Below, piece by piece: positions 15,354-59,392 of a DNA stretch of 64,000 bases (its first letter is position 1; each line of letters opens with the position of its first letter). The notes beneath the pieces are model-generated. The model saw only the letters and a list, made by a program, of their open reading frames with translations. It did no database searches and was not told the DNA's origin. A program made the translations under genes and the position numbers. The DNA comes from Bacteroidetes bacterium 2013_40CM_41_45 (lineage in GTDB: Bacteria > Bacteroidota > Bacteroidia > AKYH767-A > 2013-40CM-41-45): the NCBI GenBank assembly GCA_002215675.1, contig NGFH01000009.1, positions 299,501-363,500 on the forward strand. Direction: 5' to 3'.

Positions 15354-15388
15354 GAAATTGAAAATTGAGAATTAAGAATTAAAAATTG
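15354..15388. repeat. Degenerate 7-base tandem array, 5 units
   Basis: Units GAAATTG, AAAATTG, AGAATTA, AGAATTA, AAAATTG in exact 7-base register, starting 6 bases upstream of the ychF ATG. Confidence 0.7.
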
Positions 15389-15495
15389 GCGCGCAAAGAT
15401 ATACGGATTACTATGGCATAACTATTGACAATAGTAACTTCCGTTAAGTTTACAGACCTTTGCTGTCATATTGGCTTATTTAAAAATCGATTAGT

Positions 15496-17991
15496 ATGTT
15501 TCATAATGAAGAAGTAAAAATGCGGTTTCTGCCGCTGGAATTATCCACCCCGGGAGAAGAAGACACTGAGTTTATTCCCCTGATGACCAATGAAGAGGAG
15601 GATTCCATCCATTCAAAAAAAATTCCCGATGTGCTGCCGATTCTTCCATTGCGCAACACGGTTTTGTTTCCCGGTGTAGTAATTCCCATTACGGTAGGGC
15701 GCGATAAATCCATCCGGCTTATCCGCGATGCAAACAAAGGAGACAAGCTGATTGGAGTTGTCTCGCAAAAGGACATGAGCATTGAAGACCCTGCCATTAC
15801 CGACCTGAATAAAATAGGTACCATGGCGCAAATGCTCAAGATGCTGCGCATGCCCGACGGAAATACTACAGTGATTATCCAGGGAAAACGGAGATTTGAG
15901 ATTAAAGATGTGGTGCAATCGGTTCCGTATTTTAAGTGTACCGTTTCACCATTCGATGAAATTCGTCCTGACAAAAATGACAAGGAGTTTGCAGCGCTCA
16001 TTTCAGCTTTAAAAGATTTATCGCTTCAAATCATAAATCAATCTCCCAATATTCCCTCTGAAGCGGCATTCGCCATACGCAGCATAGAGAACCACTCTTT
16101 CCTCGTCAATTTCATTTCCTCCAATATGAATGCCGATGTCAACCTTAAACAACGGCTGTTGGAAATTGCGGACCTTAGGGAGAGAGCCAATCTTGTGCTG
16201 GAGCACCTGACCAAAGAGCTTCAGATGATTGAACTGAAAAATAAAATTCAAACCAAAGTACGCTCCGATATTGATAAGCAACAGAGAGAATATTTTCTGA
16301 GCCAGCAATTAAAAACCATCCAGGAAGAACTAGGTGGTAACACTCCCGAAAAAGAAGTTACCGCACTGCGCGAACGGGGCAAGCAGAAAAAATGGAGTAA
16401 GGAAGTTGCGGAAATTTTTGATAAAGAATGCGACCGCCTGAGCCGGCTTAACCCGGCATCTGCGGAACATTCAGTGCTTACAAGTTACCTCGAGTTGCTT
16501 CTTGATTTACCCTGGAATGAATTTACCAATGATAATTTCAACCTGAAGCGCGCTCAGAATATTCTTGACCGCGACCACTACGGATTAGAAAAAGTTAAAG
16601 CCCGCATACTTGAGTATTTGGCAGTACTTAAGCTGAAGCGCAATATGAAATCGCCCATCATGTGTTTGTATGGGCCTCCGGGAGTAGGAAAGACCTCCCT
16701 CGGAAAATCGGTGGCTGAAGCGCTGGGAAGAAAATATGTGCGTATGTCACTGGGTGGCCTGCACGATGAAGCGGAAATCCGCGGCCACCGCAAAACATAT
16801 ATAGGAGCTATGCCGGGAAGAATTATTCAGAACCTGCGCAAAGCCAAATCATCCAATCCTGTTTTTGTTTTAGATGAAATAGATAAGACGGGAAGAGATT
16901 TTCATGGAGACCCATCATCAGCTTTGTTGGAAGTTCTTGACCCCGAACAGAACAGCGCTTTCTACGATAACTACGTGGAAGTAGAATACGATTTATCCAA
17001 CGTACTTTTTATTGCAACGGCAAATTCGCTGAGCAACGTTCAGCCTGCATTGCTTGACCGTCTTGAAATCATAGAGATTACAGGTTACACGGTTGAAGAA
17101 AAAATACAGATTGCCATGAAGCATCTTGTACCCAAACAGCTTGAAGCGCATGGATTGAAAAAGCATCATTTCAAAGTTGATGAAAAAATTCTTGAGTTGA
17201 TGATTGAAAATTATACCCGCGAATCGGGAGTGCGTAACCTGGAAAAGAAAATTGCATCGCTGGTGAGAGGTATTGCCAAACATGTGGCCATGAGGGAAAA
17301 ACATAATCCGAAAATTAGCGAGGAAGATGTTATCCGTATACTGGGCGCTCCTGTTTTCCAGAAAGAAAAATACCAGGGCAATGATGTGCCGGGAGTAGTC
17401 ACCGGTCTTGCATGGACTCCGGTAGGCGGAGAAATTCTGTTTATCGAAACCAGTTTAAGCAAGGGCAAAGGAACGTTGACGCTTACCGGAAACTTAGGCG
17501 ATGTAATGAAAGAATCCGCCACCATTGCGCTTGCGTTTCTTAAAGCGCACAGCGGCTTGCTGAATGTTGATACAGAATCGTTCGGCCAGTGGGATATTCA
17601 CCTGCACGTGCCTGAAGGAGCAACACCCAAAGACGGGCCTTCGGCCGGTATTTCCATGATGACTTCGCTTGCTTCAGCTTTCACCAAAAGAAAAGTTAAA
17701 AAAGGAATTGCCATGACTGGTGAGATAACCTTGCGTGGAAACGTGCTTCCCGTTGGCGGTATCAAAGAAAAAATTCTTGCCGCTCGCAGGGCGGGCATTC
17801 ATGAAATAATTTTATGCAAACATAACCGCAAGGACATTGAAGAAATTAAAAAGGACTATGTAAAAGGCATGACCATTCATTACGTAGAGCAGATGACAGA
17901 AGTCCTTGAACTGGCTCTTACCGATGAGGTGGCAGATTTAAAGGACCTGCCCGTAGCGAGCAGGAAAAAAGGAGTAGAAATTATTCTTTGA
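15496..17991 (+). CDS. lon: ATP-dependent Lon protease
   Basis: Lon degrades misfolded and regulatory proteins in the cytoplasm. The 831-residue protein has the N-terminal LON substrate domain (from about residue 45, [18 protein letters not shown]), Walker [10 protein letters not shown] (about 393-401), Walker [10 protein letters not shown] (about 456-464), and a C-terminal serine protease domain. The catalytic dyad is Ser 716 (DGPSAG) and Lys 759 (GGIKEK). The frame starts at an ATG at 15496; a second ATG at 15520 is possible. It is slightly longer than E. coli Lon (784) mainly at both ends, as usual in Bacteroidota. Transcription is divergent from ychF. Confidence 0.98.
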
Positions 17992-18147
17992 GTCTCTTAC
18001 CGGGACAATTTAAGTCTGGCTTCAGATAAGAGATAGCTCCGGATTTACAGATAAATCTGTAAATCTGTAAAGATTTGCTATCTGTACCCAGCCATTTTAA
18101 GAGCTAAATTAGATTTAGGAATAATTTTCATTCTTCAGTTTTATTAA

Positions 18148-18155
18148 TACATTTG
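18148..18155 (+). promoter_or_regulatory. Candidate -7 box for rpsA
   Basis: TACATTTG fits TAnnTTTG and lies 46 bases before the rpsA ATG. No -33 TTG at 17-23 bases was found. Confidence 0.45.
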
Positions 18156-18201
18156 CGTCCCTTTTGACAAGAAAATTAGTTATTAACCCTTTAAAAATTG
18201 C

Positions 18202-20220: not shown

Positions 20221-20255
20221 AATAACTAATGATTACGAATGTTACGAATTACGAA
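20221..20255. repeat. Degenerate 7-base tandem array upstream of pyrR
   Basis: Units AATAACT, AATGATT, ACGAATG, TTACGAA, TTACGAA; further ACGAAT-like words follow. It lies in the presumed pyrR leader. Confidence 0.6.
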
Positions 20256-20340
20256 TACTGCAATATAAAAATGTGTGCCTAAATCTGATTCGTAATATTT
20301 GTTACCATTCGTTAATTAGCAAGCATAATAACTCAACAGG

Positions 20341-21834: not shown

Positions 21835-21855
21835 GTACGATTTACGGGTTACAAT
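21835..21855. repeat. Short 7-base tandem array (3 units)
   Basis: GTACGAT, TTACGGG, TTACAAT between the convergent pyrB and membrane-protein genes. Confidence 0.45.
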
Positions 21856-23841: not shown

Positions 23842-23876
23842 CGTATAACGAAATAACTCATAACATATAACTCACT
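23842..23876. repeat. Degenerate 7-base tandem array, 5 units
   Basis: Units CGTATAA, CGAAATA, ACTCATA, ACATATA, ACTCACT, ending 7 bases before the rplS ATG, so it occupies the mRNA leader. Confidence 0.7.
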
Positions 23877-23883: not shown

Positions 23884-24234
23884 ATGGATTTAGTGAAATT
23901 TGCAGAAGAAAAGCTGATAGAGCATAAAAAGTACCCTGATTTTAAAGCCGGTGACACTATTACTGTGCACTACCGGATTATAGAAGGTAACAAGGAACGT
24001 ATTCAGCAGTTCCAGGGAACGGTGCTGCAGCGCAAAGGTGCGGGGCTTCGCCAGACCTTTACGGTTCGTAAGATTTCTAATGGAGTAGGCGTGGAGCGTA
24101 TTTTTCCCCTGTACTCTCCAAAGATTGATAAGATTGAACTGGATAAAAGAGGTGTAGTTCGCAGGGCGCGTATTTACTACCTGCGCAAAACCGTTGGAAA
24201 GAAATCGCGTATCGAAGAAGAAGTAGAATCATAA
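23884..24234 (+). CDS. rplS: 50S ribosomal protein L19
   Basis: This 116-residue protein has the full L19 pattern: [13 protein letters not shown] near the N-terminus, the [14 protein letters not shown] block, and the C-terminal [20 protein letters not shown]19 sits at the 30S-50S interface. A clear promoter lies upstream and rpmE2 follows after 33 bases. In this window the L19 gene is not next to trmD/rimM, its partners in many other phyla. Confidence 0.98.
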
Positions 24235-28570: not shown

Positions 28571-28602
28571 AATTTGAGAATTTGAGAATTAGCTGATTTG
28601 AA
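28571..28602. repeat. Short 8-base tandem array
   Basis: AATTTGAG twice, then AATTAGCT and GATTTGAA, directly after the propeller gene stop. Confidence 0.45.
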
Positions 28603-30742: not shown

Positions 30743-30777
30743 AATTACCAAATAACAAATGTCAATTATCAATTAAT
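30743..30777. repeat. Degenerate 7-base tandem array, 5 units
   Basis: Units AATTACC, AAATAAC, AAATGTC, AATTATC, AATTAAT, immediately upstream of the paaC ATG. Confidence 0.7.
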
Positions 30778-33508: not shown

Positions 33509-35077
33509 TCTGTATTCTCCAAAAACATTTTTCATCGCCTGTGAGATTTCTCCAAGCGTGGCATAAGATTCCACGGCATTGAGAATGGCAGGCATCAGGT
33601 TTTTGTTTTCTTTTGCGCACGTTTCAATTTCAGCTAAAGCAGAAGAAGCTTTTTGAGCATCTCTTTCCTGCTTAACCTTTTTAATTTTTTCTTTCTGAAT
33701 TTTTGCTGCAGATTCATCCACACTAAAAACCTGCCGCTGGTTTTCTTCTTTAATGACATAATCATTAACGCCAACAATAATCCGCTCTTTCTTTTCCACC
33801 TGCTGTTGGTGGCGGTAGGATGAGTTTGCAATTTCTTTCTGAATATATCCTTGTTCAATAGCGCTGACGGCTCCACCCATCTTATCTATTTTCTCTATAA
33901 TTTCTTTCGCCTTTTTTTCTAATTCATCAGTGAGCGATTCAACATAATACGAACCACCTAGAGGGTCAGCTGTGTCCGGTGCACCACTTTCTTGAGCAAT
34001 AATTTGCTGTGTGCGCACTGCAACTCTTGCAGCTTCTTCCGAAGGAAGTCCTAAAGCTTCGTCATAACCATTAGTATGTAATGATTGTGTTCCGCCCAGC
34101 ACAGCAGACAAGGCTTGTATTGCAACGCGCACTACGTTGTTAAGCGGCTGTTGTGCAGTAAGTGTAGAGCCGCCTGTTTGTGTATGGAAACGCAGCATCT
34201 GTGCGCGTTCATCCGTTGCGCCAAAGTCTTTCATAATCTGAGCCCACATTTTTCGCCCCGCCCTGAACTTGGCAACTTCCTGGAACAGGTTATTATGAGC
34301 ATTAAAAAAGAACGAGAGCCGCTTTCCAAAAACATTTATGTCGAGTCCTTTTTCCAAAGCAGCTTTCACGTATGCTTTCCCGTTCGAGAGAGTGAATGCA
34401 AGTTCCTGTGCCGCGGTAGCTCCCGCCTCGCGGATATGGTAGCCTGAAATAGAAATTGTATTCCATTTCGGGACTTCCCTGATGCAGTATTCAAAAATAT
34501 CAGTAATGATTCTCATGGATGGCTTTGGAGGATAGATGTATGTTCCTCTTGCCGCATACTCTTTAAGGATATCATTCTGAACGGTGCCTGAAATATTTTT
34601 CAAATCACATCCCTGCTTTTTTGCAATTGCAATGTACATCGCAAGCAGGATAGATGCTGTTGCGTTGATAGTCATTGAAGTGGTAATGCTGTCGAGGCGA
34701 ATGCCGTCAAAAAGAATTTCCATATCACGCAGCGTATCTATAGCAACGCCCGCTTTACCCACTTCACCTTCCGCAAGCTCATGGTCTGAATCATAACCCA
34801 TCTGCGTGGGTAAATCAAAAGCAACCGAAAGGCCGGTGGTGCCATGCTTCAATAAATAATGGTAACGTTTGTTTGATTCTTCTGCACTGGAGAAACCCGC
34901 ATACTGACGCATCGTCCAGAGTTTGCCGCGATACATGTCGGGCTGAATGCCGCGGGTAAAAGGAAACTCTCCCGGTGCTTCTCTCTCCGGAGCAGGAGCG
35001 GTATAAACAGGTTTTATTTCTACACCACTGTCGGTGGTTAAAGGTTTGAGGTTTGCAGTTTGAGGTTTGGGGTCCAT
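33506..35077 (-). CDS. Methylmalonyl-CoA mutase-type acyl-CoA mutase, catalytic (large) subunit
   Basis: The enzyme rearranges methylmalonyl-CoA and succinyl-CoA with adenosylcobalamin. The TIM-barrel domain starts at [27 protein letters not shown] and the Arg in [13 protein letters not shown] are the positions associated with methylmalonyl- rather than isobutyryl-CoA preference. The B12-binding domain (DxHxxG) is absent, so this is a stand-alone large subunit needing a partner gene, not in the window. The start is uncertain: ATG codons at 35077 and 35092 and a TTG at 35122 are in frame. The first residues of any version are encoded by heptamer repeats (35044-35071). Confidence 0.88.
35044..35071. 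repeat. 7-base tandem array encoding the mutase N-terminus
   Basis: Units GTTTGAG, GTTTGCA, GTTTGAG, GTTTGGG on the + strand. On the minus strand they are translated as KPQTANLKP, just after the Met at 35077. Confidence 0.75.
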
Positions 35078-35090
35078 GTCTAACCTATTC

Positions 35091-35118
35091 ATAGTACATA
35101 ATACATCGTACTTTGTAC
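35091..35118. repeat. Degenerate 7-base tandem array, 4 units
   Basis: ATAGTAC, ATAATAC, ATCGTAC, TTTGTAC, between the mutase gene and the membrane-protein gene upstream of it. Confidence 0.7.
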
Positions 35119-35661
35119 TCAAATTAATTTACCGGCTTCAGCTCTTAAAATGTTCAAGGCGCTTTCAGAAGGAACCGTTCCCGACTTTGAAATCAGTTCA
35201 TAAATGCTTCTGCTTAATTCAATGCCGTTAGATGAATCAGGAGTTTTGTCATACGCATTATGGATGAGATGAATGGTTTCCTCTTTTGCGTTACGTACAC
35301 TTTGCCATGCATCGGCAGTAACGTAAATCTGCTGCGAAACATTGTGTTCAAACTCAGAGTTAATGGCATTAACAAGATCTGACCGCAGCCTTGCCGCACT
35401 CATGCCATGGGTAAGTGTGCGGGGTAAGAGAGAAATGGGAGAAATGCGCTCAAGAAAAATACACAGCCGCTCGTATGCCTGCAGTTTTAACGGCACCAGT
35501 GTTTTATGCGCTTCCTTCCGTGCTTCTGTCATACGAATGTTTGCGTCACGGTCAAGGAAACGTTTGGTCACAAAAAACATTGCCATCATAACAATAAAGG
35601 CAGGAAGAATATACATCAGCACATCGGTAAGAGCCATTTGCGGTTTGATTTTATTTTTCAA
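35119..35661 (-). CDS. Uncharacterised single-pass membrane protein
   Basis: The 180-residue product has one transmembrane helix near residues 14-31 ([18 protein letters not shown]) and a long, mostly helical cytoplasmic part, with the block [22 protein letters not shown] recall similar proteins only as uncharacterised Bacteroidota families. The gene lies directly upstream of the mutase gene on the same strand, separated only by a heptamer array, so co-transcription is likely. A link to CoA metabolism is not supported by any motif. Confidence 0.7.
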
Positions 35662-35683
35662 ATATCTGAATAATTTCAGAGTT

Positions 35684-35718
35684 ATGAATTATGAATTATG
35701 AGTTACCAGTTAACAATT
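35684..35718. repeat. Degenerate 7-base tandem array, 5 units
   Basis: ATGAATT, ATGAATT, ATGAGTT, ACCAGTT, AACAATT, just upstream (minus-strand sense) of the 35661 start. Confidence 0.7.
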
Positions 35719-35799
35719 ATAAAAACGCAATCCGTAATTCGTATATGGGTATAGATTCCCTGTCTTCCTGCAGGCAGGGTTATTCGTAACATAAAAAAG

Positions 35800-35894
35800 G
35801 GGTAAGCTTACTGCATCGCACCGCTCAACCATTTATCCTTGCTTCATTCCTGACCTGGGGAAGTTCACGGGAGCTGGTCGTACAGGGCTTACCC
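35800..35894 (-). ncRNA. ffs: Signal recognition particle RNA (4.5S-type)
   Basis: On the minus strand, ends GGGTAAGC (35894-35887) and GCTTACCC (35807-35800) close a long rod. The conserved tip reads CAGGTCAGGAATGAAGCAAGG: a GGAA tetraloop closed by TCA/TGA, with the CAGG and AGCA internal-loop strands that bind Ffh. Further rod helices include GCTC/GAGC. A T-run (TTTTTT) directly follows the closing stem on the minus strand and should terminate transcription. A near -7 box (TATTTTCG, 35909-35902) ends 7 bases before the 5' end. The RNA works with Ffh and FtsY in membrane protein targeting. Confidence 0.9.
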
Positions 35895-35922
35895 TTGCGG
35901 GCGAAAATACTTATTCTTATCA

Positions 35923-35950
35923 GTCGGGAGTCAGGAGTTCGGAGTAGGGA
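35923..35950. repeat. Degenerate 7-base tandem array, 4 units
   Basis: GTCGGGA, GTCAGGA, GTTCGGA, GTAGGGA. Confidence 0.75.
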
Positions 35951-35979
35951 GAAAATTTTTTAATTTTTCTGTCTTCAAA

Positions 35980-36007
35980 CCCCTTACTCCCAACTCCCTA
36001 CTATTAT
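35980..36007. repeat. Degenerate 7-base tandem array, inverted relative to 35923
   Basis: CCCCTTA, CTCCCAA, CTCCCTA, CTATTAT. The words are complementary to those at 35923-35950, so the two arrays can pair. The last unit runs up to the candidate promoter of the next gene. Confidence 0.65.
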
Positions 36008-36585: not shown

Positions 36586-36590
36586 GCATT

Positions 36591-36646
36591 GATAATTGAT
36601 AATTGATAATTGATAATTGATAATTAGTCATTAGTCATAGTCATTA
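36591..36646. repeat. 7-base tandem arrays: GATAATT x5, then AGTCATT-type x3
   Basis: Five perfect GATAATT copies (36591-36625) are followed by AGTCATT, AGTCATA, GTCATTA. The array fills the gap between the DUF4199 gene and the GTG start of the GT2 gene at 36647. Confidence 0.9.
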
Positions 36647-37880: not shown

Positions 37881-38546
37881 ATGAAAAAGACAATATGTTG
37901 CAATACCAATCATTACCTGCAGAACGAAACCTCGGTTATCTGTATAAACGAGGGGTGCTCAAAATACCTTATCCATACCACCCTGGTAAAACAAAACAGG
38001 ACCAAACGGTTTCTTACTGCAATGTGGCTACTCGCATTCCTTGTCGTATTTACTTCTAATGATTTCTCCAATATAAATTCAGCATCTGTAAACAATCATC
38101 AGAAGGAAATGCTGGTAAAGCTTCGTCCGCTGCTAAGCGTTGAATCGCTGCGCAATGAAATTGAAGAACTCCAGTTGGTTTGCCCCGGTGAAGCGTATGC
38201 ACAAATGATGCTTGAATCAGGAAATCTCTCATCGTTCCTTACCAGGCGCGCCAACAACATGCTTGGAATGCGTTTTCCGTTCCGCAGAACCACTACTGCA
38301 AGCGGGTTGTACCTTCCTGAAAAAGATACCATTATTTATGGTAATTCCCTATCGCTGAAAAAGTATGCGAAGCAGAACAACTATGCCGTATATGCCACTT
38401 GGCAGGATGCCGTAAAAGATTATAAGTTCTGGCAGGACGAATATTTCCGCCTGGGCGAACGTTACCTTCAGTTCTTAGGAAATATTTATGCCGAGGACTC
38501 AAGTTACAGTGCTAAAATCCGTACCGTAATGAAACGTGGCAGTTAA
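37881..38546 (+). CDS. Membrane-anchored glucosaminidase-like protein with Cys-rich N-terminus
   Basis: The 221-residue protein has a cytoplasmic N-terminus with four cysteines (ICCNTNHYL ... VICINEGCSKY), then a single membrane helix (about 43-59, FLTAMWLLAFLVVFTS), then an extracytoplasmic domain. That domain carries the glucosaminidase (Flg_new/LytG-like) pattern CPGEAYAQMMLESGNLSSF, whose Glu could be catalytic, and NNMLGMRFPFRR. Such enzymes cut peptidoglycan glycan strands. The Cys-rich head looks like a degenerate zinc ribbon, which is unusual for a wall hydrolase; the spacing does not make a canonical CxxC pair set. Confidence 0.75.
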   Translation: MKKTICCNTNHYLQNETSVICINEGCSKYLIHTTLVKQNRTKRFLTAMWLLAFLVVFTSNDFSNINSASVNNHQKEMLVKLRPLLSVESLRNEIEELQLVCPGEAYAQMMLESGNLSSFLTRRANNMLGMRFPFRRTTTASGLYLPEKDTIIYGNSLSLKKYAKQNNYAVYATWQDAVKDYKFWQDEYFRLGERYLQFLGNIYAEDSSYSAKIRTVMKRGS

Positions 38547-38548
38547 AT

Positions 38549-38600
38549 AGTTCAATAGTTAAGTACGATAAACTTTTGAACCCTTGAACTTCTGAACTTC
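38549..38600. repeat. 8-base tandem array downstream of the glucosaminidase-like gene
   Basis: ATAGTTCA, ATAGTTAA, then TTGAACCC, TTGAACTT, CTGAACTT. The period is 8 rather than 7. Confidence 0.5.
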
Positions 38601-38608: not shown

Positions 38609-40183
38609 TTATTGCTTAACTAATTTTTTAATGACAGTCTCTTTTAAAGTTTTAATCCGGATAAAATAAATTCCAGCACTCCATCTATGGGCATCTATAT
38701 GAATCTTCTGTTGTTGGTTATCACCTGTTTGATTTTGATTATAAATCTTTTCTCCAAGAGAAGAATAAACTTCAAAGCTCTCAATCGTAAACCCTGAATC
38801 GTAAATCGTAATTTGATTTGTTGCCGGGTTTGGATAAATGGAAATCAAATCGTCATCTGCAATGAACTCGTTTTCACCCACGGTAAAACAAAGAGAAGTT
38901 TCTGTCAGGGTTGGAGAAGTAAATGAAAGCGATGATGCGGCAACATTTGTCAAAGACGAATCAATAACATTAATTGAAGTTGCCGTTAAAGTATAGGCAG
39001 TCATCAGGAAGGCGGGAAGGCTTTCATTGCAGCCGCTGCTGCCGTTAGTATCGGTCTTTATAACGTATGCGCTTTGACCGTTGCCAAAACTTAACGAACT
39101 ACATGCAAGCACATATCCGCTGTTGGTCGACTGAATAACCTGGCTTGCCTGGTCATTGCCAATACCACCATATTCCTTGCTCCATTCGGGGGCACCTGAA
39201 GAATCGGTTTTAATAAGAAATGCTCCGTAGTCGGCAGAAAAACTGTTGGTGCGCCCGCAGAGAGCATAACCTCCATCAGAAGTGGAAGCAAGTCCGACGC
39301 AATTGTCATCGCTGGTTCCGGGGCCCGAATAGGAGTTAGACCATACCGGTGTTCCGTTCGGGCTGAGTTTTGCAAGCCATGCATTGACGGGAGACAACTG
39401 TGACGAAACTCCGGCAATCATATAATTGCCTGACGGCTGTACTATAATGCCGTTTATCCAATGGTCATTGGAACCGCCATACGTATTTGCCCATTGCACA
39501 TTGCCGCTCGCATCAGTTTTAATTGCAAGCGCAGCGCTGTTTACACCATTAAAATTCTCTCCTCCAATAATGTATCCTCCATCACTGGTCTGGGCAACAG
39601 AGTAACCATAGTCGTCATCAGAACCAACCGAATAGCTATGCACCCACTGAATGTTGCCGGAGCCGTCCAATTTTAAAAGGCACGCATTGTCGTTGGTGGC
39701 TACACCGCCATTCTGGAGCCCTACAGCTGCATATCCGCCATCAGAGGTCGGGATTATATCATTACCACTGTCGCCATTCACAGAACCGCATGTTCTTTGC
39801 CAGCTAATGATGCCGATGTTATTGGTTTTAAAAATCCAAATGTCTCCCAGCCCGTTACCGGAGCTTTCAGTCAATCCAACAGCAACATATCCGCCATCAG
39901 GGGTTTGCCTTACCATATATACCCGGTCCCATCCGGTGCCGCCATAAGTTCTCGTCCACTGAATCGTGCCATACGCATCGGTCTTGGTAAGATACGCATC
40001 ATAGCTGCCGGCACCAAAGCTGTTGGTTTCTCCGCCAAGTATGTAGCCACCATCAGTAGTTTGCGCTACAGACCAGCAGTAATCGGTTCCTGCACCGCCA
40101 TACGTTTTTTGGAATCGAATTAACTGCGCGCTAAGTGTAGATGTCATTGTGAGCGCAATAAAAAGTGTAGTAATTTGTTTCAT
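38609..40183 (-). CDS. T9SS-secreted beta-propeller protein
   Basis: The frame opens at 40285, but the ATG at 40183 (MKQITTLFIALTMTSTLSAQ) provides the signal peptide, giving 524 residues. The body is about eight repeats of the type TYGGTGWDRVYMVRQTPDGGYVA followed by KTDxxGxxxW, which form propeller blades. The C-terminal type A sorting domain has SIYPNPATNQITIYDSG and ends VIKKLVKQ. It is a surface or secreted protein of unknown ligand. It is the last gene of a four-gene minus-strand run of exported proteins. Confidence 0.88.
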   Translation of the reverse strand: MKQITTLFIALTMTSTLSAQLIRFQKTYGGAGTDYCWSVAQTTDGGYILGGETNSFGAGSYDAYLTKTDAYGTIQWTRTYGGTGWDRVYMVRQTPDGGYVAVGLTESSGNGLGDIWIFKTNNIGIISWQRTCGSVNGDSGNDIIPTSDGGYAAVGLQNGGVATNDNACLLKLDGSGNIQWVHSYSVGSDDDYGYSVAQTSDGGYIIGGENFNGVNSAALAIKTDASGNVQWANTYGGSNDHWINGIIVQPSGNYMIAGVSSQLSPVNAWLAKLSPNGTPVWSNSYSGPGTSDDNCVGLASTSDGGYALCGRTNSFSADYGAFLIKTDSSGAPEWSKEYGGIGNDQASQVIQSTNSGYVLACSSLSFGNGQSAYVIKTDTNGSSGCNESLPAFLMTAYTLTATSINVIDSSLTNVAASSLSFTSPTLTETSLCFTVGENEFIADDDLISIYPNPATNQITIYDSGFTIESFEVYSSLGEKIYNQNQTGDNQQQKIHIDAHRWSAGIYFIRIKTLKETVIKKLVKQ

Positions 40184-40196: not shown

Positions 40197-41102
40197 TTAT
40201 TGTTTAATAAATTTTTTAGTAATAATTCCGTTTTCTGTTCCAATGCGGGCGAAATAAATTCCGGGTGCAAGCCAAGAAATATCAACGCGAAGCCCCTCTC
40301 CCTTGGGAGTGGGATTTAGGGTGAGCCGTTTCTCTCCTAGCATATTATAAATTTCAATTACCTCAATTTTCCATTTTCCATTATCCATTATCAATTCACC
40401 GGAACCGGGATTGGGGAAGAGGGATATTTCAAAGTCGCGCGAATGCTCGTTAAAGCCCTCACAAATATTCGGAAATACATGAATGTCATCAATCATCCAT
40501 CCTTCTTTATTTGAATTTATTGAATCACTTTGGAAGGTAAATCTGAATAACAGGGAATCTATTGGAAAAGGAAAACCGCAGAGCATGAAATCATATTGCA
40601 CGAATTGCCATCCGTTTGACGAGCCACTAAAGGCAGGTATACCGCCTGTAATTGTATCGGTTGCTGAATACGAGTTAATAGCTGACTGAAGAAAAGGAAA
40701 GTTGATGATATTCTGCCACGTCACGCCGTCGAGAGACAATTCAATGAAACATCCGTCATGTAATGAATCTGTATCATATTTATGAGTAAAGTCAACCATT
40801 AAATATATTGCGTTCCAGGAATTAAAAACCATTGCATTGGTGACCGTTACTATAAAAGACGAACGATTATTTACAGGGTAAGGATTTAACGTATCGGTAA
40901 CAATAACATTAGGAGCAGAATAAGCGCTATCAAAAATTATTTTCTGCGGAGGCCCCGTTTGCCAGATATTACCTGCCAGGGATGTATCTATTCTCCAGGG
41001 CAGCGATGTAGAAGTATCGAAATCGGCAGTATAATACCCTTGTGAAAATGCAGGCGCATTAACAAAGGCAGCAAAAAATAAAACACACAGAAATTTTTTC
41101 AT
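40197..41102 (-). CDS. T9SS-secreted protein with a jelly-roll/MAM-like region (predicted)
   Basis: Signal peptide MKKFLCVLFFAAFVNAPAFSQ from the ATG at 41102 (the frame opens at 41120). The 301-residue product has a beta-rich N-terminal domain (TADFDTSTSLPWRIDTSLAGN ... KEGWMIDDIHVFPN). The last strand motif is common in extracellular adhesion-type beta sandwiches. A type A sorting domain (SLFPNPGSGELIMDNG ... IITKKFIKQ) closes the protein. It lies 13 bases upstream of the propeller gene and is probably co-transcribed. Confidence 0.82.
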   Translation of the reverse strand: MKKFLCVLFFAAFVNAPAFSQGYYTADFDTSTSLPWRIDTSLAGNIWQTGPPQKIIFDSAYSAPNVIVTDTLNPYPVNNRSSFIVTVTNAMVFNSWNAIYLMVDFTHKYDTDSLHDGCFIELSLDGVTWQNIINFPFLQSAINSYSATDTITGGIPAFSGSSNGWQFVQYDFMLCGFPFPIDSLLFRFTFQSDSINSNKEGWMIDDIHVFPNICEGFNEHSRDFEISLFPNPGSGELIMDNGKWKIEVIEIYNMLGEKRLTLNPTPKGEGLRVDISWLAPGIYFARIGTENGIITKKFIKQ

Positions 41103-43552: not shown

Positions 43553-44344
43553 TTAGTGTGGAATTGGAACCGAAGCATTATGCAACCCATGTGCGGCAAT
43601 GGAGTAAAAATATTTTGCGCCTGTCGTGTCGCTGAAATTCTGAATATCCAAATCATAATATTCTTTGTAAATCATTCCAACATGGTTGGCAAAAATTTCT
43701 TTACCGTTTTTACGCTCAATCGCATTGGGCAATGGCCCCCGCAGTACAATCAATGTCGAATCAAAATAAAATGTGCCGATAGAATATTGAACATGGACAT
43801 CATCATATCCATATATATCTTCTCCAAAAAAGTTGTACGCGTTGCCGTTCCATGTTGTATTCAGGTTGATAGGAAATCCGAGCTTCACATAGCGCACGTT
43901 GTTTTCCACACGTTCATATCGTGCAAGAGTAAGAGTGGAATTCCATACATTAACTTCCGGCTGCCACGGAGCACTGGCCGAGTTCCTTTTAAAACGCTGG
44001 AGTCGTTGCGTAGGCCTGCCCTGGTTATCGATGTAAGTGGAGTCAATCCGCTCCAGGATTTGGAATGTGAAACGGGTTGCCGGCGGTGTGGTGAAAACAG
44101 AATAATATGTTGAGTCCACATCGTAAAGAATCCACCTGCCCGTATCAATAGGTGCATATTGGTAGGCGGGGCCTGCCGTACGAATTACTTCATCTTTTTT
44201 GCAAGAGGATAGAAAGAGGAATAAGATTAACCCAACTAAAAAGTATTGATTTCGGATTTCGGATTTCGGATTTCGGATTAAACCGCAATTTAAAATTCGC
44301 ATTTCGAAATTACTTATATCTGTCATAAGTTTTTTATTACTCAT
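43553..44344 (-). CDS. Uncharacterised lipoprotein with repeat-derived N-terminus
   Basis: The 263-residue frame contains a lipoprotein signal (LVGLILFLFLSSC) after an unusually long, basic n-region. Possible starts are ATGs at 44344, 44326 and 44302. There is no start between 44302 and the hydrophobic segment, so the heptamer repeat (44248-44275) must be translated, giving NPKSEIRNQ. The mature part is beta-rich (DTGRWILYDVDSTYYSVFT). I recognise no family. It sits between mnmA (3-base gap) and the S8 protease (no gap), so all are probably one transcript. Confidence 0.75.
   Translation of the reverse strand: MSNKKLMTDISNFEMRILNCGLIRNPKSEIRNQYFLVGLILFLFLSSCKKDEVIRTAGPAYQYAPIDTGRWILYDVDSTYYSVFTTPPATRFTFQILERIDSTYIDNQGRPTQRLQRFKRNSASAPWQPEVNVWNSTLTLARYERVENNVRYVKLGFPINLNTTWNGNAYNFFGEDIYGYDDVHVQYSIGTFYFDSTLIVLRGPLPNAIERKNGKEIFANHVGMIYKEYYDLDIQNFSDTTGAKYFYSIAAHGLHNASVPIPH
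44248..44275. repeat. 7-base tandem array: GATTTCG x4 (perfect)
   Basis: Four identical units in coding sequence of the lipoprotein, on the opposite strand. Confidence 0.9.
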
Positions 44345-45440: not shown

Positions 45441-45468
45441 GTTTGAGGTTTGGGATTTGAAGTTCGGT
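45441..45468. repeat. Degenerate 7-base tandem array, 4 units
   Basis: GTTTGAG, GTTTGGG, ATTTGAA, GTTCGGT, starting 4 bases upstream of the mnmA ATG. It shares the 15-mer AGTTTGAGGTTTGGG with the array at 35044-35071. Confidence 0.75.
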
Positions 45469-45474: not shown

Positions 45475-45502
45475 CCAATGACCGATGACTAATGACCAAT
45501 GA
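45475..45502. repeat. Degenerate 7-base tandem array, 4 units
   Basis: CCAATGA, CCGATGA, CTAATGA, CCAATGA. Confidence 0.8.
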
Positions 45503-45519
45503 CTATTTTAAACGCAAAG

Positions 45520-49389: not shown

Positions 49390-50652
49390 GTGATAAAGAA
49401 CATTTTGGGCAAATACTTTTTTTTCTTCTGCATAGCGGCAGGAATTTTTCTGCGCCTTAACTGGAACAGCGATATGGAGTGGAAAGCGGACGAACAGTGG
49501 ACATATGAAAAGGCGCATGAGACAGCAGTTTCCGGTACATTTCCGGCCGCCGGAATGCAGAGCGGGGGAGGGATTGTAAACCCGGGGCTGAGCTTAGGAA
49601 TCTTTGCATTGATTGCCTCATTCACCCACGACCCGCTTGCCATGAACAGGGTTGTTCAGTTAATGAATATCACGGCTATTCTTTGCTTCATGTGGTTTGC
49701 ATTGACAAAAATAAAATCACAGGAAAGGCGGGTTTGGCTGTATGGAATTGCTCTTGCTTCAGTAAGTCCACTCGCAGTTTTGTTTGCCCGGAAAATATGG
49801 GCGCAGGATTTACTTCCATTCTTTTCTTTCTTAATTCTGCTCGAAAATTATTACAGGCGTAAAGGATGGGGCGCATTTTTATGGGGACTCTGCGGAGCGC
49901 TTATCGGGCAGATTCATATGAGCGGTTTCTTTTTTGCAGCAGGAATTTTTGTATTTACGTTACTGCATGACCGCTACAATAAAATAAAATTCAACTGGCT
50001 GCCGTGGATTGCCGGTTCGCTTTTAGGAAGCATCCCCATTATGCTTTGGCTTCTGTATATACTAGAGCATCCGCAGTTTACGCGTTTTAATATTCTGCAT
50101 CTGCTGCAATTTAATTTTTACCTCTACTGGTTTCTTGATGCGCTCGGTCTCAATATCATGTATTCTATGAGAAAGGAATTCTGGGAATTTATAAAAGAGC
50201 CAATAATTTTTGGAATACCATTTTACCTTATTGCCGCAGCACATTTATTTCTAGTTGCAGCAGGGATTTTTATGCTAAAAAAGATTGGCGGTTATGCAAA
50301 AACATTTTATTTAAACCTGAAGCAAAAAACATTTTCTAGTTTTCTGTTCGCGAATATTTCGGTAACAAAGTTTTACCTTCTGGCTATTCTGCTGGGGCTG
50401 GGAGTATTTATGAACTTCAGCGGATTCACCGTTCATCCGCATTATTTAATATGCGCCTTTCCTTTTGTATATATTTTTCTTGCTAAAATATTTCAGGATA
50501 AGGAGAGGCTGCTTAAAGGAATAATCATCGCTCAACTATTTATCACTATTATGTTCCAGGTTTATGTGCACCGCCAGAATGGGATAAAAAACGGTGATTA
50601 CGGAATTACTTACAAAGAGCAAATGAGCACTTCAAAATCAATAAATCAATAA
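49390..50652 (+). CDS. GT39/ArnT-like membrane glycosyltransferase (predicted)
   Basis: The 420-residue protein starts at a GTG and has about ten hydrophobic helices. The first loop contains WNSDMEWKADEQWTYEKA, with acidic residues placed as in GT-C transferases (catalytic Asp/Glu of loop 1). There is no soluble C-terminal domain. It shares this design with the partial gene at 1-502. The donor and acceptor are unknown. It is divergent from gldA. Confidence 0.75.
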   Translation: MIKNILGKYFFFFCIAAGIFLRLNWNSDMEWKADEQWTYEKAHETAVSGTFPAAGMQSGGGIVNPGLSLGIFALIASFTHDPLAMNRVVQLMNITAILCFMWFALTKIKSQERRVWLYGIALASVSPLAVLFARKIWAQDLLPFFSFLILLENYYRRKGWGAFLWGLCGALIGQIHMSGFFFAAGIFVFTLLHDRYNKIKFNWLPWIAGSLLGSIPIMLWLLYILEHPQFTRFNILHLLQFNFYLYWFLDALGLNIMYSMRKEFWEFIKEPIIFGIPFYLIAAAHLFLVAAGIFMLKKIGGYAKTFYLNLKQKTFSSFLFANISVTKFYLLAILLGLGVFMNFSGFTVHPHYLICAFPFVYIFLAKIFQDKERLLKGIIIAQLFITIMFQVYVHRQNGIKNGDYGITYKEQMSTSKSINQ

Positions 50653-50668
50653 ATCAATAAATCAATAA
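50641..50668. repeat. 8-base tandem array ATAAATCA x3 plus partial
   Basis: It spans the last codons and stop of the membrane glycosyltransferase gene, so the C-terminal SINQ is repeat-encoded. Confidence 0.75.
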
Positions 50669-51100: not shown

Positions 51101-52126
51101 CTAATGGAGGATTTTAAAAACGAGTTCACGCAGAAGTTCTCCATCTTCGGCATTGCTGTCAACGCCTTTTGATTTTAAATCATACTGGTGAAGGTCGGAA
51201 ATAATCAAGTGAACTTTTTCGCGTGGATATTTTTTTGCAGCATTCATATATTCGTCAGCAAAATATGGATTGATGCCCAAAGAAGAAGCAACCGATGCCC
51301 TGGTTTTTTCTTTCAGAGAATGATAAACAAGAATTTTTGAGAAGTATGAAAACAACGTTCCAAGCGTAACTACCAGCGGATTGTTTCTGGGATTTGAGGC
51401 GAAGTATGAAATGATACGGTTGGCTTTCAGCACATCTTTATTTCCAAGTGCGTTTTGCAATTCAAAATTATTGTAGTCCTTGCTTACACCGATATACATT
51501 TCGATGTGCGCATCTGTAATTTCTGCTCCTGCATTTACGTTCAGCATCAGCTTTTCAAGTTCGTTGCTTATTAAAGTCAAATCATTTCCTAAAAATTCAG
51601 ACAGCATCACTGCAGTGCGAGGGTTAATCTTATACTTTCTTCCATGAATATAATCCGTAATCCAGTCGGGAATTTTATTGTCATATAGTTTCTTTGATTC
51701 AAAAAGAACAGAATTTTTCTCAATGGCTTTTGCAAGCTTCGTCCGCTTATCAATGGTTTTATACTTATGACAAAGCACAAGTACCGTTGATGGAACGGGA
51801 TTAACGATATAATCCATCAAAATATCTTTTTCCTTTTCTGCTTCGCTTTTTGGAATAAGGTTTTTTAAGTCCTGCGCTTCGCGCACAATTACCACCTGGC
51901 GTTTTGCCATCATCGGAAAGCGTCTTGCCATGGCAAGAAGTGCCCGCTTCTCAGTATCTTTTCCATAAAGCACATGCAGGTTAAATGCTTTCTCGCTTTC
52001 ATCAAGTGCATGCTCCTGTATGTAGGACGAAATCTTATCAATGTAATAAGATTCATCTCCGTGCAAAAAATAGACAGGAGCATATTTACCTGCTTTAAGG
52101 TCGGAAATTATTTGGCTGAAGGTCAT
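51101..52126 (-). CDS. holA: DNA polymerase III subunit delta (HolA)
   Basis: The 341-residue protein has the delta-subunit start YFLHGDESYYIDKISSYI, where residues bind the beta clamp, and the AAA+-like body with VVIVREAQDLKNL. A C-terminal collar domain (NNFELQNALGNKDVLKANRIISYF) completes it. It loads the sliding clamp with gamma/tau and delta'. A heptamer array (52129-52163) sits just before its ATG. The EVE gene begins 20 bases downstream. Confidence 0.93.
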   Translation of the reverse strand: MTFSQIISDLKAGKYAPVYFLHGDESYYIDKISSYIQEHALDESEKAFNLHVLYGKDTEKRALLAMARRFPMMAKRQVVIVREAQDLKNLIPKSEAEKEKDILMDYIVNPVPSTVLVLCHKYKTIDKRTKLAKAIEKNSVLFESKKLYDNKIPDWITDYIHGRKYKINPRTAVMLSEFLGNDLTLISNELEKLMLNVNAGAEITDAHIEMYIGVSKDYNNFELQNALGNKDVLKANRIISYFASNPRNNPLVVTLGTLFSYFSKILVYHSLKEKTRASVASSLGINPYFADEYMNAAKKYPREKVHLIISDLHQYDLKSKGVDSNAEDGELLRELVFKILH

Positions 52127-52128
52127 GG

Positions 52129-52163
52129 ATGATGTACGATGTACAAGTTACGATATACGATTT
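52129..52163. repeat. Degenerate 7-base tandem array, 5 units
   Basis: ATGATGT, ACGATGT, ACAAGTT, ACGATAT, ACGATTT, starting 3 bases upstream of the holA ATG. Confidence 0.8.
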
Positions 52164-52314: not shown

Positions 52315-53712
52315 TTATTTAGAGAGAACGATTTTCTGGGCAACCACTCTCTCATCCGTTTTAAGTTGAATAAGATAAATGCCTGCGGGATACAGGGATA
52401 AATTAAATTCTGATTTCAGGTTTCTGATTTCGGATTGAAAAATATTTTTCCCAACCGCATCATACATAATTAACTCCGCATGCTCTTTAAACTTCGGGTT
52501 TTGAACTATTAAATGTTGCGAAGCAGCATCAACATAGATTGCAAGCGGTGAAGCGCTGGCGGAAGTCATTCCTTCTGCTATTGATAAATCCGCTTGCTGA
52601 ATATCACTTTGCGGACCAGTACCTGAAGTCGCATCAAAATCTATTAATTTGGTGTAAACGTTGGTTGCAATATCGTAACTGAAAGCGACACCCAAACTGT
52701 TTGCTCCTCCAGCATTAGTCGTTCCAAACAGTTTACCATTAGTCGCCTGCGTTAAACCTCGCTGAGGATGAGAGCCATTGGATCCGTCAAAATTATAAAT
52801 CACCGAATACTGCGAGGCGGAAATATCATAGCTGAAAATAACACCATAAGGACCTGTTCCTCCCTGGTTGGCCATTCCATATAATTTTCCGTTTGATGCC
52901 TGTATTAAGCCACTATAAGGAGTACTGCCCTGTGCGCCATTAAAATCATGCAGGTTGGTATAAACATTTGCCGACACATCATAGCTGAAGATAACGCCCA
53001 CATTATTAGCTCCGCCAGTATAAGTGGTTCCATATAATTTGCCATCGGTGGCTTGTATTAAATTTTCCATATAAGGATTTGCCCCATGACTGGAGCTAAA
53101 ACTATACAGAATAGAATAAACTTGTGTTGTTAAATCATAGCGGAAAATAAAACCCTGGGAATTTACCCCTCCACTGTATGAAACTCCATAAAGTTTTCCA
53201 TCCAATGCCTGCATTAAACCTCCATAATAATATGCGCTTGATTGATTCAGTAAAGTATAAGCATGCGTGTTGGGGTCGAATTTATAAATGATTCCATTTT
53301 GCTGATGCCCGTATAAGTTTCCATCGGGCAATCTAATCAACCCGCCTTGTGAGGGCTCGCCAATAGGGGCGTTGCAATAAAAATCATAAACATCTGTGCA
53401 TGTGCCGGCAAGGGGGTCATATTCATAAAGCGTGCAGCTATCGGAACATCCACCCAAAAAAGTTACGCCATAAATTTTTCCGTTCGATGCCTGCGCTATT
53501 TTTCCCCAGGGCCATAATCCCTCAGCCATAACGAATGAATGAACAGCATGCAGATTACTGCCGTCCAGATCTGCCTGGAAGATAGTTCCTCCGTTTGCAG
53601 GTCCTCCCTGGGAGCAGGTTCCAAAAAGGACAGGGGTTTGGGCTGATGAGAAATTAATTCCGGCAACAGCCAGGAGAAAATTAAGAATGAGAAGTGAAGT
53701 AATTTTTTTCAT
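52315..53712 (-). CDS. T9SS-secreted GloVer-repeat (propeller) protein
   Basis: From the ATG at 53712 (MKKITSLLILNFLLAVAG) the protein has a signal peptide and 465 residues. It carries about eight tandem repeats of the type LIQASNGKLYGMANQGG ... GVIFSYDISASQYSVIYNF, the 'choice-of-anchor tandem repeat GloVer' pattern that forms propeller blades. The C-terminal sorting module (IYVDAASQHLIVQNP ... VVAQKIVLSK) lacks the usual YPNP words and is a divergent sorting domain. The ligand is unknown. Confidence 0.87.
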   Translation of the reverse strand: MKKITSLLILNFLLAVAGINFSSAQTPVLFGTCSQGGPANGGTIFQADLDGSNLHAVHSFVMAEGLWPWGKIAQASNGKIYGVTFLGGCSDSCTLYEYDPLAGTCTDVYDFYCNAPIGEPSQGGLIRLPDGNLYGHQQNGIIYKFDPNTHAYTLLNQSSAYYYGGLMQALDGKLYGVSYSGGVNSQGFIFRYDLTTQVYSILYSFSSSHGANPYMENLIQATDGKLYGTTYTGGANNVGVIFSYDVSANVYTNLHDFNGAQGSTPYSGLIQASNGKLYGMANQGGTGPYGVIFSYDISASQYSVIYNFDGSNGSHPQRGLTQATNGKLFGTTNAGGANSLGVAFSYDIATNVYTKLIDFDATSGTGPQSDIQQADLSIAEGMTSASASPLAIYVDAASQHLIVQNPKFKEHAELIMYDAVGKNIFQSEIRNLKSEFNLSLYPAGIYLIQLKTDERVVAQKIVLSK

Positions 53713-54719: not shown

Positions 54720-54720
54720 T

Positions 54721-54780: not shown

Positions 54781-54782
54781 GA

Positions 54783-58273: not shown

Positions 58274-58359
58274 TTTAATAAATGGAAATAATTATATGTT
58301 GTAAGTTATTGTCTGTGGTGTCAGGTCCTTCGACTTTGCACTTTCATTTGCTCGTTTTC

Positions 58360-58385
58360 ACTGTCAGGACGGAAGTCCTGACAGT
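58360..58385. repeat. Perfect 11-bp hairpin with GGAA loop
   Basis: Arms ACTGTCAGGAC and GTCCTGACAGT. The same CAGGA/TCCTG words occur in the hairpin at 54675-54697, suggesting a dispersed palindromic element. Confidence 0.65.
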
Positions 58386-58532
58386 ACAGCAAAGAAAGAC
58401 GGATTATTATGAGAAGAAATATTTCACCGCTGATATGCGTTGCAATATTTTTGGTTTGCAGAATGTTTGTTACTTGCATACAGTATCGTGACTTCCACAA
58501 CTCTTCTTTTTTAAATTGCATTTAATCTTAGT

Positions 58533-58542
58533 GTTATGCGCA
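58533..58542. repeat. Left copy of 10-base inverted repeat bracketing one gene
   Basis: GTTATGCGCA; perfect inverted partner at 59329-59338. Confidence 0.6.
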
Positions 58543-58603
58543 TCACCACTCTCCGCGCCACGAAGCGATACAGTTGCAAGTTCGCACGCACTTTGTTTAA
58601 ACT

Positions 58604-59212
58604 TTACATTGAGAAGTTAAGGTTTGTTGGTTCTGCATTTTGAATAGAAGGCGCTTTGTATTCATACTCTCCAACTTCCAACTTGTCTAATACTTTGTCT
58701 GAACTGCTTGCAACTTCTATTTTCAAATTGTCAAACCACATTTGTCCTGTTCCATTTAGCAGTCCACCAAATGCAATGTTCTTTGTATCCGAAGGAACAT
58801 CTAAAACGATTTCACATTTTGTCCAATCGCTATTTCCTCTCATATATCTGTTCTTCATATTCTCAAGAGAATATTTTGTTGGTTGGTCAATGCGTATCCA
58901 AAGTGCAGACCAACTTGTAACATCTTTCGTTTTAATATACCCTGAAAGTTTAATTTTCTTTCCAAGATACTTACTCGGATTAAAACTTTGCCCAAGAGAA
59001 GCAAAACCATCCATGCCTCCAATGTCTTCGGCAATTGATTTAATTGTTGCAGCATTGATTCCATTTTGTCCTGCGCCTTTGTCAATGCCTGCATCGTATT
59101 TTTCAGGAGCGTCACCTTTTTTCACCCAACCGTTGGGAACAGTGAATGATACAAGTGTTACTGTCATCGCAATGAGTAACACACTTACTAAAACTTTCAT
59201 AGTTGCTTTCAT
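58604..59212 (-). CDS. Secreted beta-sandwich (galactose-binding-like) protein in a cassette-like block
   Basis: The 202-residue product has a signal peptide or anchor (MKVLVSVLLIAMTVTLVSFTV from the second Met). A single beta-sandwich follows (KYLGKKIKLSGYIKTKDVTSW ... CEIVLDVPSDTKNIAFGG ... GTGQMWFDNLKIEV), similar in pattern to carbohydrate-binding or DUF-type galactose-binding domains sometimes appended to regulators. No catalytic motif was seen. The gene is bracketed by inverted repeats at 58533 and 59329. Its codon use looks more AT-rich than that of its neighbours, which could mean transfer, though this is only a by-eye impression. Confidence 0.7.
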   Translation of the reverse strand: MKATMKVLVSVLLIAMTVTLVSFTVPNGWVKKGDAPEKYDAGIDKGAGQNGINAATIKSIAEDIGGMDGFASLGQSFNPSKYLGKKIKLSGYIKTKDVTSWSALWIRIDQPTKYSLENMKNRYMRGNSDWTKCEIVLDVPSDTKNIAFGGLLNGTGQMWFDNLKIEVASSSDKVLDKLEVGEYEYKAPSIQNAEPTNLNFSM

Positions 59213-59328
59213 TGTAATTTATTTTTTGATTGTTGCTTACTCTATTCGGTTTTCAGCATCTCCGTTTATTTAGTTTTTCAAAGTTAATTTCTTGGACACA
59301 CTTTCAAGTTGGTAGCCCCCCAAACGGT

Positions 59329-59338
59329 TGCGCATAAC
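59329..59338. repeat. Right copy of 10-base inverted repeat
   Basis: TGCGCATAAC, the exact reverse complement of the copy at 58533-58542. Confidence 0.6.
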
Positions 59339-59371
59339 ATTTAAATATACGCAGTGAACCTACCAATACTC

Positions 59372-59392
59372 GCATATAACATATAACTTATA
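59372..59392. repeat. Short 7-base tandem array (3 units)
   Basis: GCATATA, ACATATA, ACTTATA, next to the cassette-like block's right edge. Confidence 0.55.

Follow-up and report, generated by a model that had tools for sequence, protein, structure and literature searches.

Convergent heptameric arrays of many words at the gene borders of a Bacteroidota genome

The window analyzed here is a stretch of 64,000 nucleotides (G000:C2:299501-363500) from the 3.38 Mb genome of Bacteroidetes bacterium 2013_40CM_41_45, referred to as G000 among the 61 genomes compared, and many of its gene gaps carry short degenerate tandem arrays with a period of seven bases, which use many different words under one rule of anchor, strand and pairing. 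An original prediction made from the letters of the window had listed 16 such arrays together with three relatives of period 8. All 19 coordinates were scored anew with a lag scan of the local sequence, in which a match counted +1 and a mismatch -1.5, and a local p value was calculated for each against shuffles of its own 400-base surroundings. The results showed that 15 of the 16 period-7 arrays beat the local shuffles (p 0.003 to 0.013) and that the one at 21835 was weak, while all three period-8 arrays held (local p 0.003 to 0.007). The period-7 features of the window are given below in window coordinates, with protein families assigned by Pfam, RNA families assigned by Rfam, and gene starts called mechanically. 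Each array is assigned to the strand on which it reads RTT (R being A or G), and where no strand is named none was assigned.

15355..15387, AAATTGA/GAATTAA array in the gap between the YchF and Lon genes (flanks by Pfam), 7 bp off the YchF start edge; score 18.5, local p 0.003
20242..20256, short AATTACG array 3' of an S1-domain protein gene; score 8, local p 0.013, with lag 9 also scoring 8
21836..21852, plus strand, weak ATTTACG stretch 3' of an aspartate/ornithine carbamoyltransferase family gene; score 5, p 0.066, not significant
23853..23871, minus strand, ATAACNN array 5' of the open reading frame (ORF) 23884-24234; score 7, local p 0.003
30743..30775, AATTATC/AAATAAC array, 7 bp off a PaaA_PaaC-family gene (Pfam); score 11, local p 0.003
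35036..35073, plus strand, GTTTGAG array, paired with the adjacent array to its right, the arms not being complementary; score 13.5, pair score 4, fold z +0.86
35090..35119, CATNGTA array, right partner of 35036..35073, RTT polarity not clear; score 10.5
35679..35719, plus strand, ATTATGA/GTTAACA array to the left of the small signal recognition particle (SRP) RNA gene (by Rfam); score 19
35796-35901, minus strand, small SRP RNA gene (RF04183, 91 bits, Rfam) with a heptamer array on both sides
35922..35951, GGGAGTN array, left hairpin arm, which fits the Xanthomonas form GGGANTN and not RTT; score 10.5, fold z -4.28 with 35986-36002
35986..36002, ACTCCCN array, right hairpin arm for 35922..35951 by folding; score 7.5, local p 0.003
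36588..36636, ATTGATA five times and then ATTAGTC, filling the gap between a DUF4199 gene and a family-2 glycosyltransferase gene (Pfam); score 34.5
38797..38811, minus strand, short AATCGTA array in a type IX sorting domain (site 1; PF18962 at C2:338118-338339, window 38618-38839), below the threshold of the domain count given later; score 8, local p 0.003
40363..40396, plus strand, ATTTTCC/ATTATCC array in a type IX sorting domain (site 1; PF18962 at C2:339706-339921), included in that count; score 19.5
44248..44279, plus strand, ATTTCGG array, left hairpin arm, in the 5' part of the called ORF 43553-44344; score 25, fold z -3.41 with 44283..44311
44283..44311, minus strand, mixed-unit right arm by folding (ATTTTAA and ATTGCGG on the minus strand), with related mixed arms at other G000 loci and in G002
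45441..45459, plus strand, GTTTGAG array in the first codons of a called MnmA-type (tRNA_Me_trans) ORF; score 7, local p 0.007
45475..45503, minus strand, CCAATGA array, convergent with 45441..45459, the arms differing in word; score 12, fold z -0.20
52125..52161, GATGTAC/GATATAC array where the DNA polymerase III delta gene starts (51101-52126, minus strand; Pfam); score 10, local p 0.003
52408..52436, plus strand, ATTTCAG/ATTTCGG array in a weak sorting domain (site 2; Por_Secre_tail 26.8 bits, cut-off 27), a domain outside that count; score 9.5
59373..59394, minus strand, CATATAA array, 26 bp off the stop end of ORF 59421-61340 (minus strand); score 12.5

The three arrays in sorting domains (40363, 52408 and 38797) were absent from the earlier list, and the stretch from 35.7 to 35.95 kb, which had been read as a gap, holds the small SRP RNA gene. 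The array at 45441..45459 probably lies in a leader rather than in MnmA-type coding sequence, since the tRNA_Me_trans domain begins only at residue 27 of the called ORF.

For the window as a whole, nine lag-7 segments scored at least 11 in comparison to none in every one of 20 dinucleotide shuffles, and lags 4-6 and 8-12 gave 0 to 3 such segments each. The intergenic autocorrelation that the original prediction had proposed as a check was also run, and lag 7 stood at z 5.4 over shuffled gaps, with lags 5 and 8-10 at z -1.2 to 0.5 and lags 4 (z 4.1) and 6 (z 2.2) also raised; the outcome by which the prediction would have been refuted did not occur. The count at genome scale was based on 1.26 Mb of G000 (contig 1 contributing 760,000 bases and contig 2 another 503,500, with 5,000 bases reading N), with a score of at least 12 as threshold and dinucleotide shuffling as the null. 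The number of period-7 arrays was 104 in comparison to 0 in shuffled sequence; the other periods from 3 to 20 gave 0 to 12 arrays each, the exception being the harmonic 14 with 50, and period 21 gave 15. The earlier observation of a period-7 array family is confirmed. Its description as filling gene gaps stands for the 73 of the 104 arrays that are mostly intergenic and not for the other 31, many of which lie inside type IX sorting domains. No Rfam family matched the arrays at gathering scores.

The words were said to change from array to array and to drift within each, which is borne out, except that they are not free: 102 of the 104 consensus words hold RTT on one strand in comparison to 80 expected when letters are shuffled within each word, so that RTTNNNN is a near-general form. 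A scan left open to any three-letter anchor written in A, C, G, T, R and Y put RTT top by ratio, with 46 five-unit chains at period 7 and 0 in shuffled sequence (0 to 3 at periods 5, 6, 8, 9 and 10), while looser anchors such as RTY gave more chains yet were present in shuffled sequence too. A fit without any anchor returned R T T W K W N, with a rate of change between neighboring units of.03,.04,.01,.13,.09,.20 and.42 along the word, drift thus being greatest at the seventh position, and this fit exceeded five column-permuted controls by 121 to 136 log units. The change profile is what re-annealing of an AAY end of three bases would give if the first base were copied with poor fidelity, but a strong-cored binding site could produce much the same pattern. 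In G008, a genome of the same family with a G+C content of 0.52, the best anchor was looser (RYT) and the fitted profile different, which shows that RTT in its exact form does not hold everywhere. The commonest words of G000 (GTTATAN, ATTGGTC, ATTTCGG and ATTTACG) contain no run of three G, a word fitting GGGANTN occurs in one window pair (35922/35986), and a rotation of TAACTGA was found by word census in one of the 104 arrays, as AACTGAT.

The position of the arrays relative to genes is equally constrained. That many lie close to gene edges, as had been noted for the window, is upheld by count: of the arrays in gaps of 80-150 bp, 83% came within 12 bp of a gene edge in comparison to 33% expected (n=24), and of those in gaps of 150-300 bp, 40% did so in comparison to 16% expected (n=20). 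The RTT strand mostly starts out at the gene edge and runs into the gap (51 versus 11 arrays), with border arrays nearer the left gene being 29 '>' versus 5 '<' and those nearer the right gene 22 '<' versus 6 '>'. In terms of genes, RTT stands on the coding strand after stops in 22 versus 6 cases and on the non-coding strand before starts in 29 versus 5, tallies in which the two arms of one pair are counted apart and so are not independent. Neighboring arrays at most 120 bp apart form 32 pairs, and all 25 with a clear polarity on both sides are convergent, the RTT strand running inwards (sorting domains account for four of these). Judged by G+T skew alone, 24 of the 32 pairs were '+-' and 0 were '-+', and the 21 pairs of G008 gave 8 '+-', 0 '-+', 4 '++' and 6 '--'. 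Local base skew was considered as the cause of this polarity and rejected, since array-free edges are only weakly skewed, with the opposite sign at convergent gaps.

The two arms of an intergenic pair also resemble each other in word (14.4 within pairs versus 10.8 across pairs, permutation p 0.0005, n=25), and 19 of 25 pairs fold as hairpins at z < -3. Among the pairs in the window, 35922/35986 and 44248/44283 fold, and those at 45441 and 35036 do not. The sequence between paired arrays has a median of 22.5 bp. Of 30 intergenic single arrays, four have a faint opposite chain inward in comparison to 0.2 expected, and none has a same-direction chain. Flanking genes are co-directional for 22 of 26 pairs in comparison to a background of 62% (p 0.024), and single arrays show no such preference (26 of 43). 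As to the direction of growth, the two ends of the arrays did not differ clearly.

The vocabulary is specific to the genome and reused at many loci. Identical words at unrelated loci join 217 array pairs in comparison to 21 expected from column composition (at most 40 in 2,000 permutations), and in G008 the corresponding numbers are 37 and 4. A mixed arm, ATTTCGG-ATTGCGA-ATTTTAA-ATTGCGG, at C2:215824 of G000 is letter-identical in G002, which belongs to another genus, and related copies occur at other G000 loci, one of them in the window near 44.3 kb, which suggests that words travel between loci, yet most arrays would be rebuilt locally. These numbers bear on the simplest account, plain local slippage from gene-edge sequence with neither dispersal nor function. 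Heptamers were found to be the most abundant long-repeat class in most heptamer-rich genomes, a finding explained by the geometry of the polymerase (Mrazek 2007, cited in PMC4679880 and PMC4692102), and an array in G022 begins on the stop codon itself, both as slippage at a gene edge would have it; word reuse at ten times expectation, the convergent polarity and the weak skew of array-free edges, reversed at convergent gaps, make it the least probable of the explanations we weighed. The array in question (G022 L258:2663-2707) has the word ATTAAGG, and its first unit includes the TAA stop of a gene that looks by eye like pyruvate dehydrogenase E1. The same genome carries ordered mixed-unit arrays at C1:68116-70615 (L272, L274, L276, L278, L280 and L282), with ATT or GTT every seven bases through several repeats and units such as GTTTTAC, ATTTTAC, ATTCACA, ATTGCAT, ATTCTAA and ATTTTTC, and a similar array is found at G027:C145:9338-9403.

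Outside the gaps, the arrays have a second habitat in proteins. Type IX sorting domains number at least 150 in the 3.4 Mb of G000 (150 scored among 248 candidates), and among the 63 of the 150 scored domains (PF18962) that fall on the analyzed stretches, 17 contain a period-7 array at a score of at least 9, one of them in the window (40363), in comparison to at most one array for each control lag of 4-6 and 8-12. Many coding arrays are found upstream of the stop codon of their gene, either 88-105 or 150-189 bases away from it. Domains that carry arrays are not longer than the others. The first stretch, measured in residues to strand two, was 23.1 with an array (13 domains) in comparison to 24.5 without (48 measurable of 50), and the second was 29.1 residues with an array (9) in comparison to 30.2 without (51 of 54); the arrays appear to have replaced earlier sequence in these domains. 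Reading the sorting-domain pairs as hairpins was rejected, as their arms are not complementary (5.0 within versus 8.0 across, n=6), and since the arms are unmatched the polarity here is better explained by coding needs, which may be T-rich codons for a strand and A/C-rich codons for a polar loop. At these sites, the process behind the gap arrays, or what it produces, is seen to enter coding sequence in two places that tolerate it.

RTT chains of five units were present in 59 of the 61 genomes (G000 included), with a load from 0 to 1,410. Relatives of a single family span the range from over a thousand chains down to one. Within one genus, the load was 2 chains in G001 in comparison to 1,030 in G008; G001, G003 and G010 have 1 to 6, and G009, of the same family, gave no period-7 array with a score of at least 12 in 540,000 bases. 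Summed over the 61 genomes there are 6,930 RTT chains in comparison to 2,932 of the reversed pattern, with overlapping matches in long arrays counted repeatedly, and 49 genomes lie above their own control and 8 below. The load rises with genome size (rho 0.73, 61 genomes), and the vocabulary differs between genera. Among 24 loci of named genomes one lag-7 segment scored at least 12, a lone AGCTACG-type array in Mediterranea massiliensis (Bacteroidales; L130:14781-14810). At six orthologous gaps the difference in length, G000 minus relative, was +40, +20, -66, +40, +14 and +23 bp for arrays of 23-38 bp, in comparison to median differences of -31, -2 and -1 bp for array-free gaps; the array gaps look insertion-like, though six are too few. 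G022 and G027 are 92.7% identical in the Lon region. Relatives that carry arrays can be set against those that lack them as a natural contrast.

This distribution also bears on the suggestion that an RNA- or DNA-binding protein with seven-base steps contacts RTT or AAY, for example a Csp/S1-like protein on leaders or a reader of border stem-loops. The near-invariant three-base anchor with four free positions would suit such a protein (although one of the counts behind it covers only units that keep RTT), as would AAY on the coding strand before starts and RTT on the coding strand after stops, and the 14 of 17 '++' pairs that end 3-17 bp before the called start. Set against these are the near absence of arrays from G009, G001, G003 and G010, so that no essential regulon can depend on them, the arrays in sorting domains, the difference in vocabulary between genera, and the mechanical calling of the starts; functional binding arrays are thus unlikely.

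To look for a dedicated enzyme, which the original prediction had also suggested, four families (RVT_1, IMS, Y1_Tnp and Ku) were searched in the 61 genomes, of which 16 were array-rich with at least 100 chains. Each family was missing from at least one of the 16, so none of the four is required. The reverse transcriptase was rejected as G000 has no RVT_1 match, although 9 of the 16 rich genomes have one; overall, the 18 genomes with RVT_1 had 25 in comparison to 6 chains per Mb (p 0.057). The error-prone polymerase IMS/DinB was rejected as it occurs in rich and poor genomes alike (p 0.60) and is absent from the rich G019 and G039, both 92% complete. Ku, found in 7 of the 61 genomes, went with a median of 65 in comparison to 5 chains per Mb (p 0.0034 before correction for four tests), but 11 of the 16 rich genomes lack it and the link is confounded with genome size. 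The Ku gene of G000 is at C2:22994-23533 on the minus strand. An array-building enzyme, telomerase-like or end-joining, that extends 3' ends by seven bases would produce the observed polarity, with the RTT strand running 5' to 3' into the gap from both sides, and could claim the Ku and RVT_1 links. Telomerase-like addition at breaks nevertheless misfits the geometry, because the other sequence sits between the arrays and not outside them, and together with the genomes that lack these genes and a load that follows genome size, this renders such an enzyme very improbable.

The Y1 transposase, for its part, did not track the load significantly (p 0.08) and was rejected as a requirement, the rich G056 having none. 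It bears on another reading, in which the arrays are small mobile palindromic elements with heptad-built arms, like repetitive extragenic palindromic (REP) sequences or miniature inverted-repeat transposable elements (MITEs), and are moved by a transposase in trans. The identical mixed arm in G000 and G002 with its related copies, the ordered mixed arrays of G022 and G027, a short array of 16 bp in G042, at a distance of 146 bp from a Y1 transposase gene, and arrays 2-3 kb from one in G008 are consistent with it. The single Y1_Tnp match of G000, however, has an internal stop and no array within 3 kb, unit order in G000 is not clearly shared above chance, and neither fixed ends nor target duplication was seen, which makes mobile elements quite unlikely. 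REP elements associated with RAYT transposases differ further in that repeats flanking the transposase gene were not found in G000.

Heptamers are over-represented in many bacteria, and an accepted reason is lacking. The STRR sequences of filamentous cyanobacteria, to which the original prediction had likened the arrays, are said to have been described by Mazel et al. in 1990 as tandem heptamers with several words per genome, features in which the G000 arrays resemble them. Three tandem heptanucleotides of Calothrix are mentioned by Rehm et al. 2015 (PMC4692102). A kinship in kind with the heptameric repeats of other bacteria stands, but the nearest relative is the convergent GGGAATC array that the same paper describes in Xanthomonas campestris and X. 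axonopodis. There, GGGAATC/(GGGANTN)n repeats are intergenic, mostly of four units, and convergent on opposite strands in 70 and 75 cases; length and sequence differ between close species, and the G-rich strand is the coding strand downstream of genes and the non-coding strand upstream. G-quadruplexes were considered and a regulatory role was not found. The G000 arrays share with this description the period, the intergenic location, a conserved core with variable positions, convergence and the strand rule. They differ in having dozens of words in place of one G-rich word, most of them without a G-run (GTTATAC, ATTTACG), in the RTT rule, in the phylum, and in occurring also in sorting domains.

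MacGregor 2015 (PMC4679880), in the passages available, describes TAACTGA direct repeats in Beggiatoaceae, some Cyanobacteria and five Bacteroidetes, which are intergenic, mostly just upstream of starts and in one orientation. In Gramella forsetii and Aequorivita sublithincola other heptamers occupy the same gaps, and in close relatives the gaps are shorter and without obvious repeats. The period and the location upstream of starts are as in G000, and TAACTGA holds AAC and so corresponds to the AAY strand. However, one word was studied there, with related heptamers seldom repeated in the main genome, those passages contain no convergent rule, and G000, with its many words, does not fit a description by a single word. 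In Table 2 of Huang and Mrazek 2014 (PMC4060949), the heptamer repeated three times (7n3) is the sole class of 4-11 nt with a non-zero value in Bacteroidetes (0.75, 34 genera); this is a count only, and grammar, pairing and location do not figure in the passages at hand. On these two sources, the statement in the original prediction that it knew of no account for Bacteroidota was too strong. A literature search by title and abstract, with subscription journals mostly outside its scope, returned nothing on many-word convergent heptamers in Bacteroidota or on heptamers in type IX sorting domains, which does not prove that such work is absent.

The arrays are thus intergenic heptameric simple-sequence arrays of the Xanthomonas kind in a many-word form. 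Convergent heptamers with this strand rule were already known from Xanthomonas as one word, and so was the heptamer excess of Bacteroidetes; what is added here is that one rule governs many words. The original prediction had missed the pairing of convergent arms, the rule on strands, the reuse of words and the sites in sorting domains. Since most G000 words have no G-run, the G-quadruplex is rejected as an unlikely common reason, and the shared architecture needs another. With dozens of words under one rule of anchor, strand and pairing, the rule is separable from any single sequence, which argues against the G-quadruplex as a general explanation and makes the origin of such repeats open to study by comparison of strains.

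The explanation we favor, held with middling confidence, is a composite of slippage in seven-base steps, template exchange in hairpins, some dispersal, and either tolerance or a mild use of the borders at the RNA level. Units would be gained by 7-nt slippage or by re-annealing of the nascent strand, the two arms of one gap would be kept alike by template exchange inside the hairpin, and words would move between loci by occasional copying followed by local re-expansion. The arrays would persist where the protein code permits, that is, at gene borders and in the two tolerant stretches of the sorting domains. The least certain step is a possible mild role at the RNA level as stem-loops at gene borders, mostly between co-directional genes, which would account for arrays hugging start and stop codons.

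Several results weigh against this composite. The polarity rule is broken by 11 of 62 arrays and its cause is not proven; arms do not pair in sorting domains nor in two of the window pairs (45441 and 35036); and the profile of G008 differs, with same-direction neighbors in 10 of its 21 pairs. Slippage from local seeds alone cannot yield the recurrent vocabulary, and block copying of arms between G000 loci was rejected, as shared mixed runs were near the numbers for shuffled units (10 versus 6.7 for runs of three, 1 versus 0.7 for runs of four). As a family trait the sorting-domain arrays were rejected likewise, with none in 27 usable domains of G004, G006 and G008, these being the 30 best-scoring of 450 scored less three that were not readable in frame. 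Among the relatives compared, none of them near-identical, no array was directly seen to be gained or lost. A bolder form, in which a single word-independent machinery in Bacteroidota and Xanthomonas writes heptamers of the genome's own vocabulary, keyed to RTT (R-Y-T), as convergent border arms by re-annealing the three-base AAY end (the first base copied being the most error-prone), draws its words in trans from other arrays and can overwrite sorting-domain loops without change of length, appears to us distinctly doubtful.

Other repeats of the window include the three period-8 arrays, given below, and a 15-base tandem repeat, TTTCTTTGCAACTTT, with 4.4 copies at 6374-6442, which is not related to the heptamers.

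28571..28590, no strand assigned, period-8 array AATTTGAG; score 12, local p 0.003
38541..38560, no strand assigned, period-8 array AGTTAAAT, listed earlier at 38549; score 9.5, local p 0.007
50635..50668, no strand assigned, period-8 array AAATCAAT over the 3' end of ORF 49390-50652, listed earlier at 50641; score 26, local p 0.003

On the same contig, outside the window, a run of about 5,000 N bases lies at G000:C2:232501-237500, about 1.2 kb past a 16S rRNA gene.

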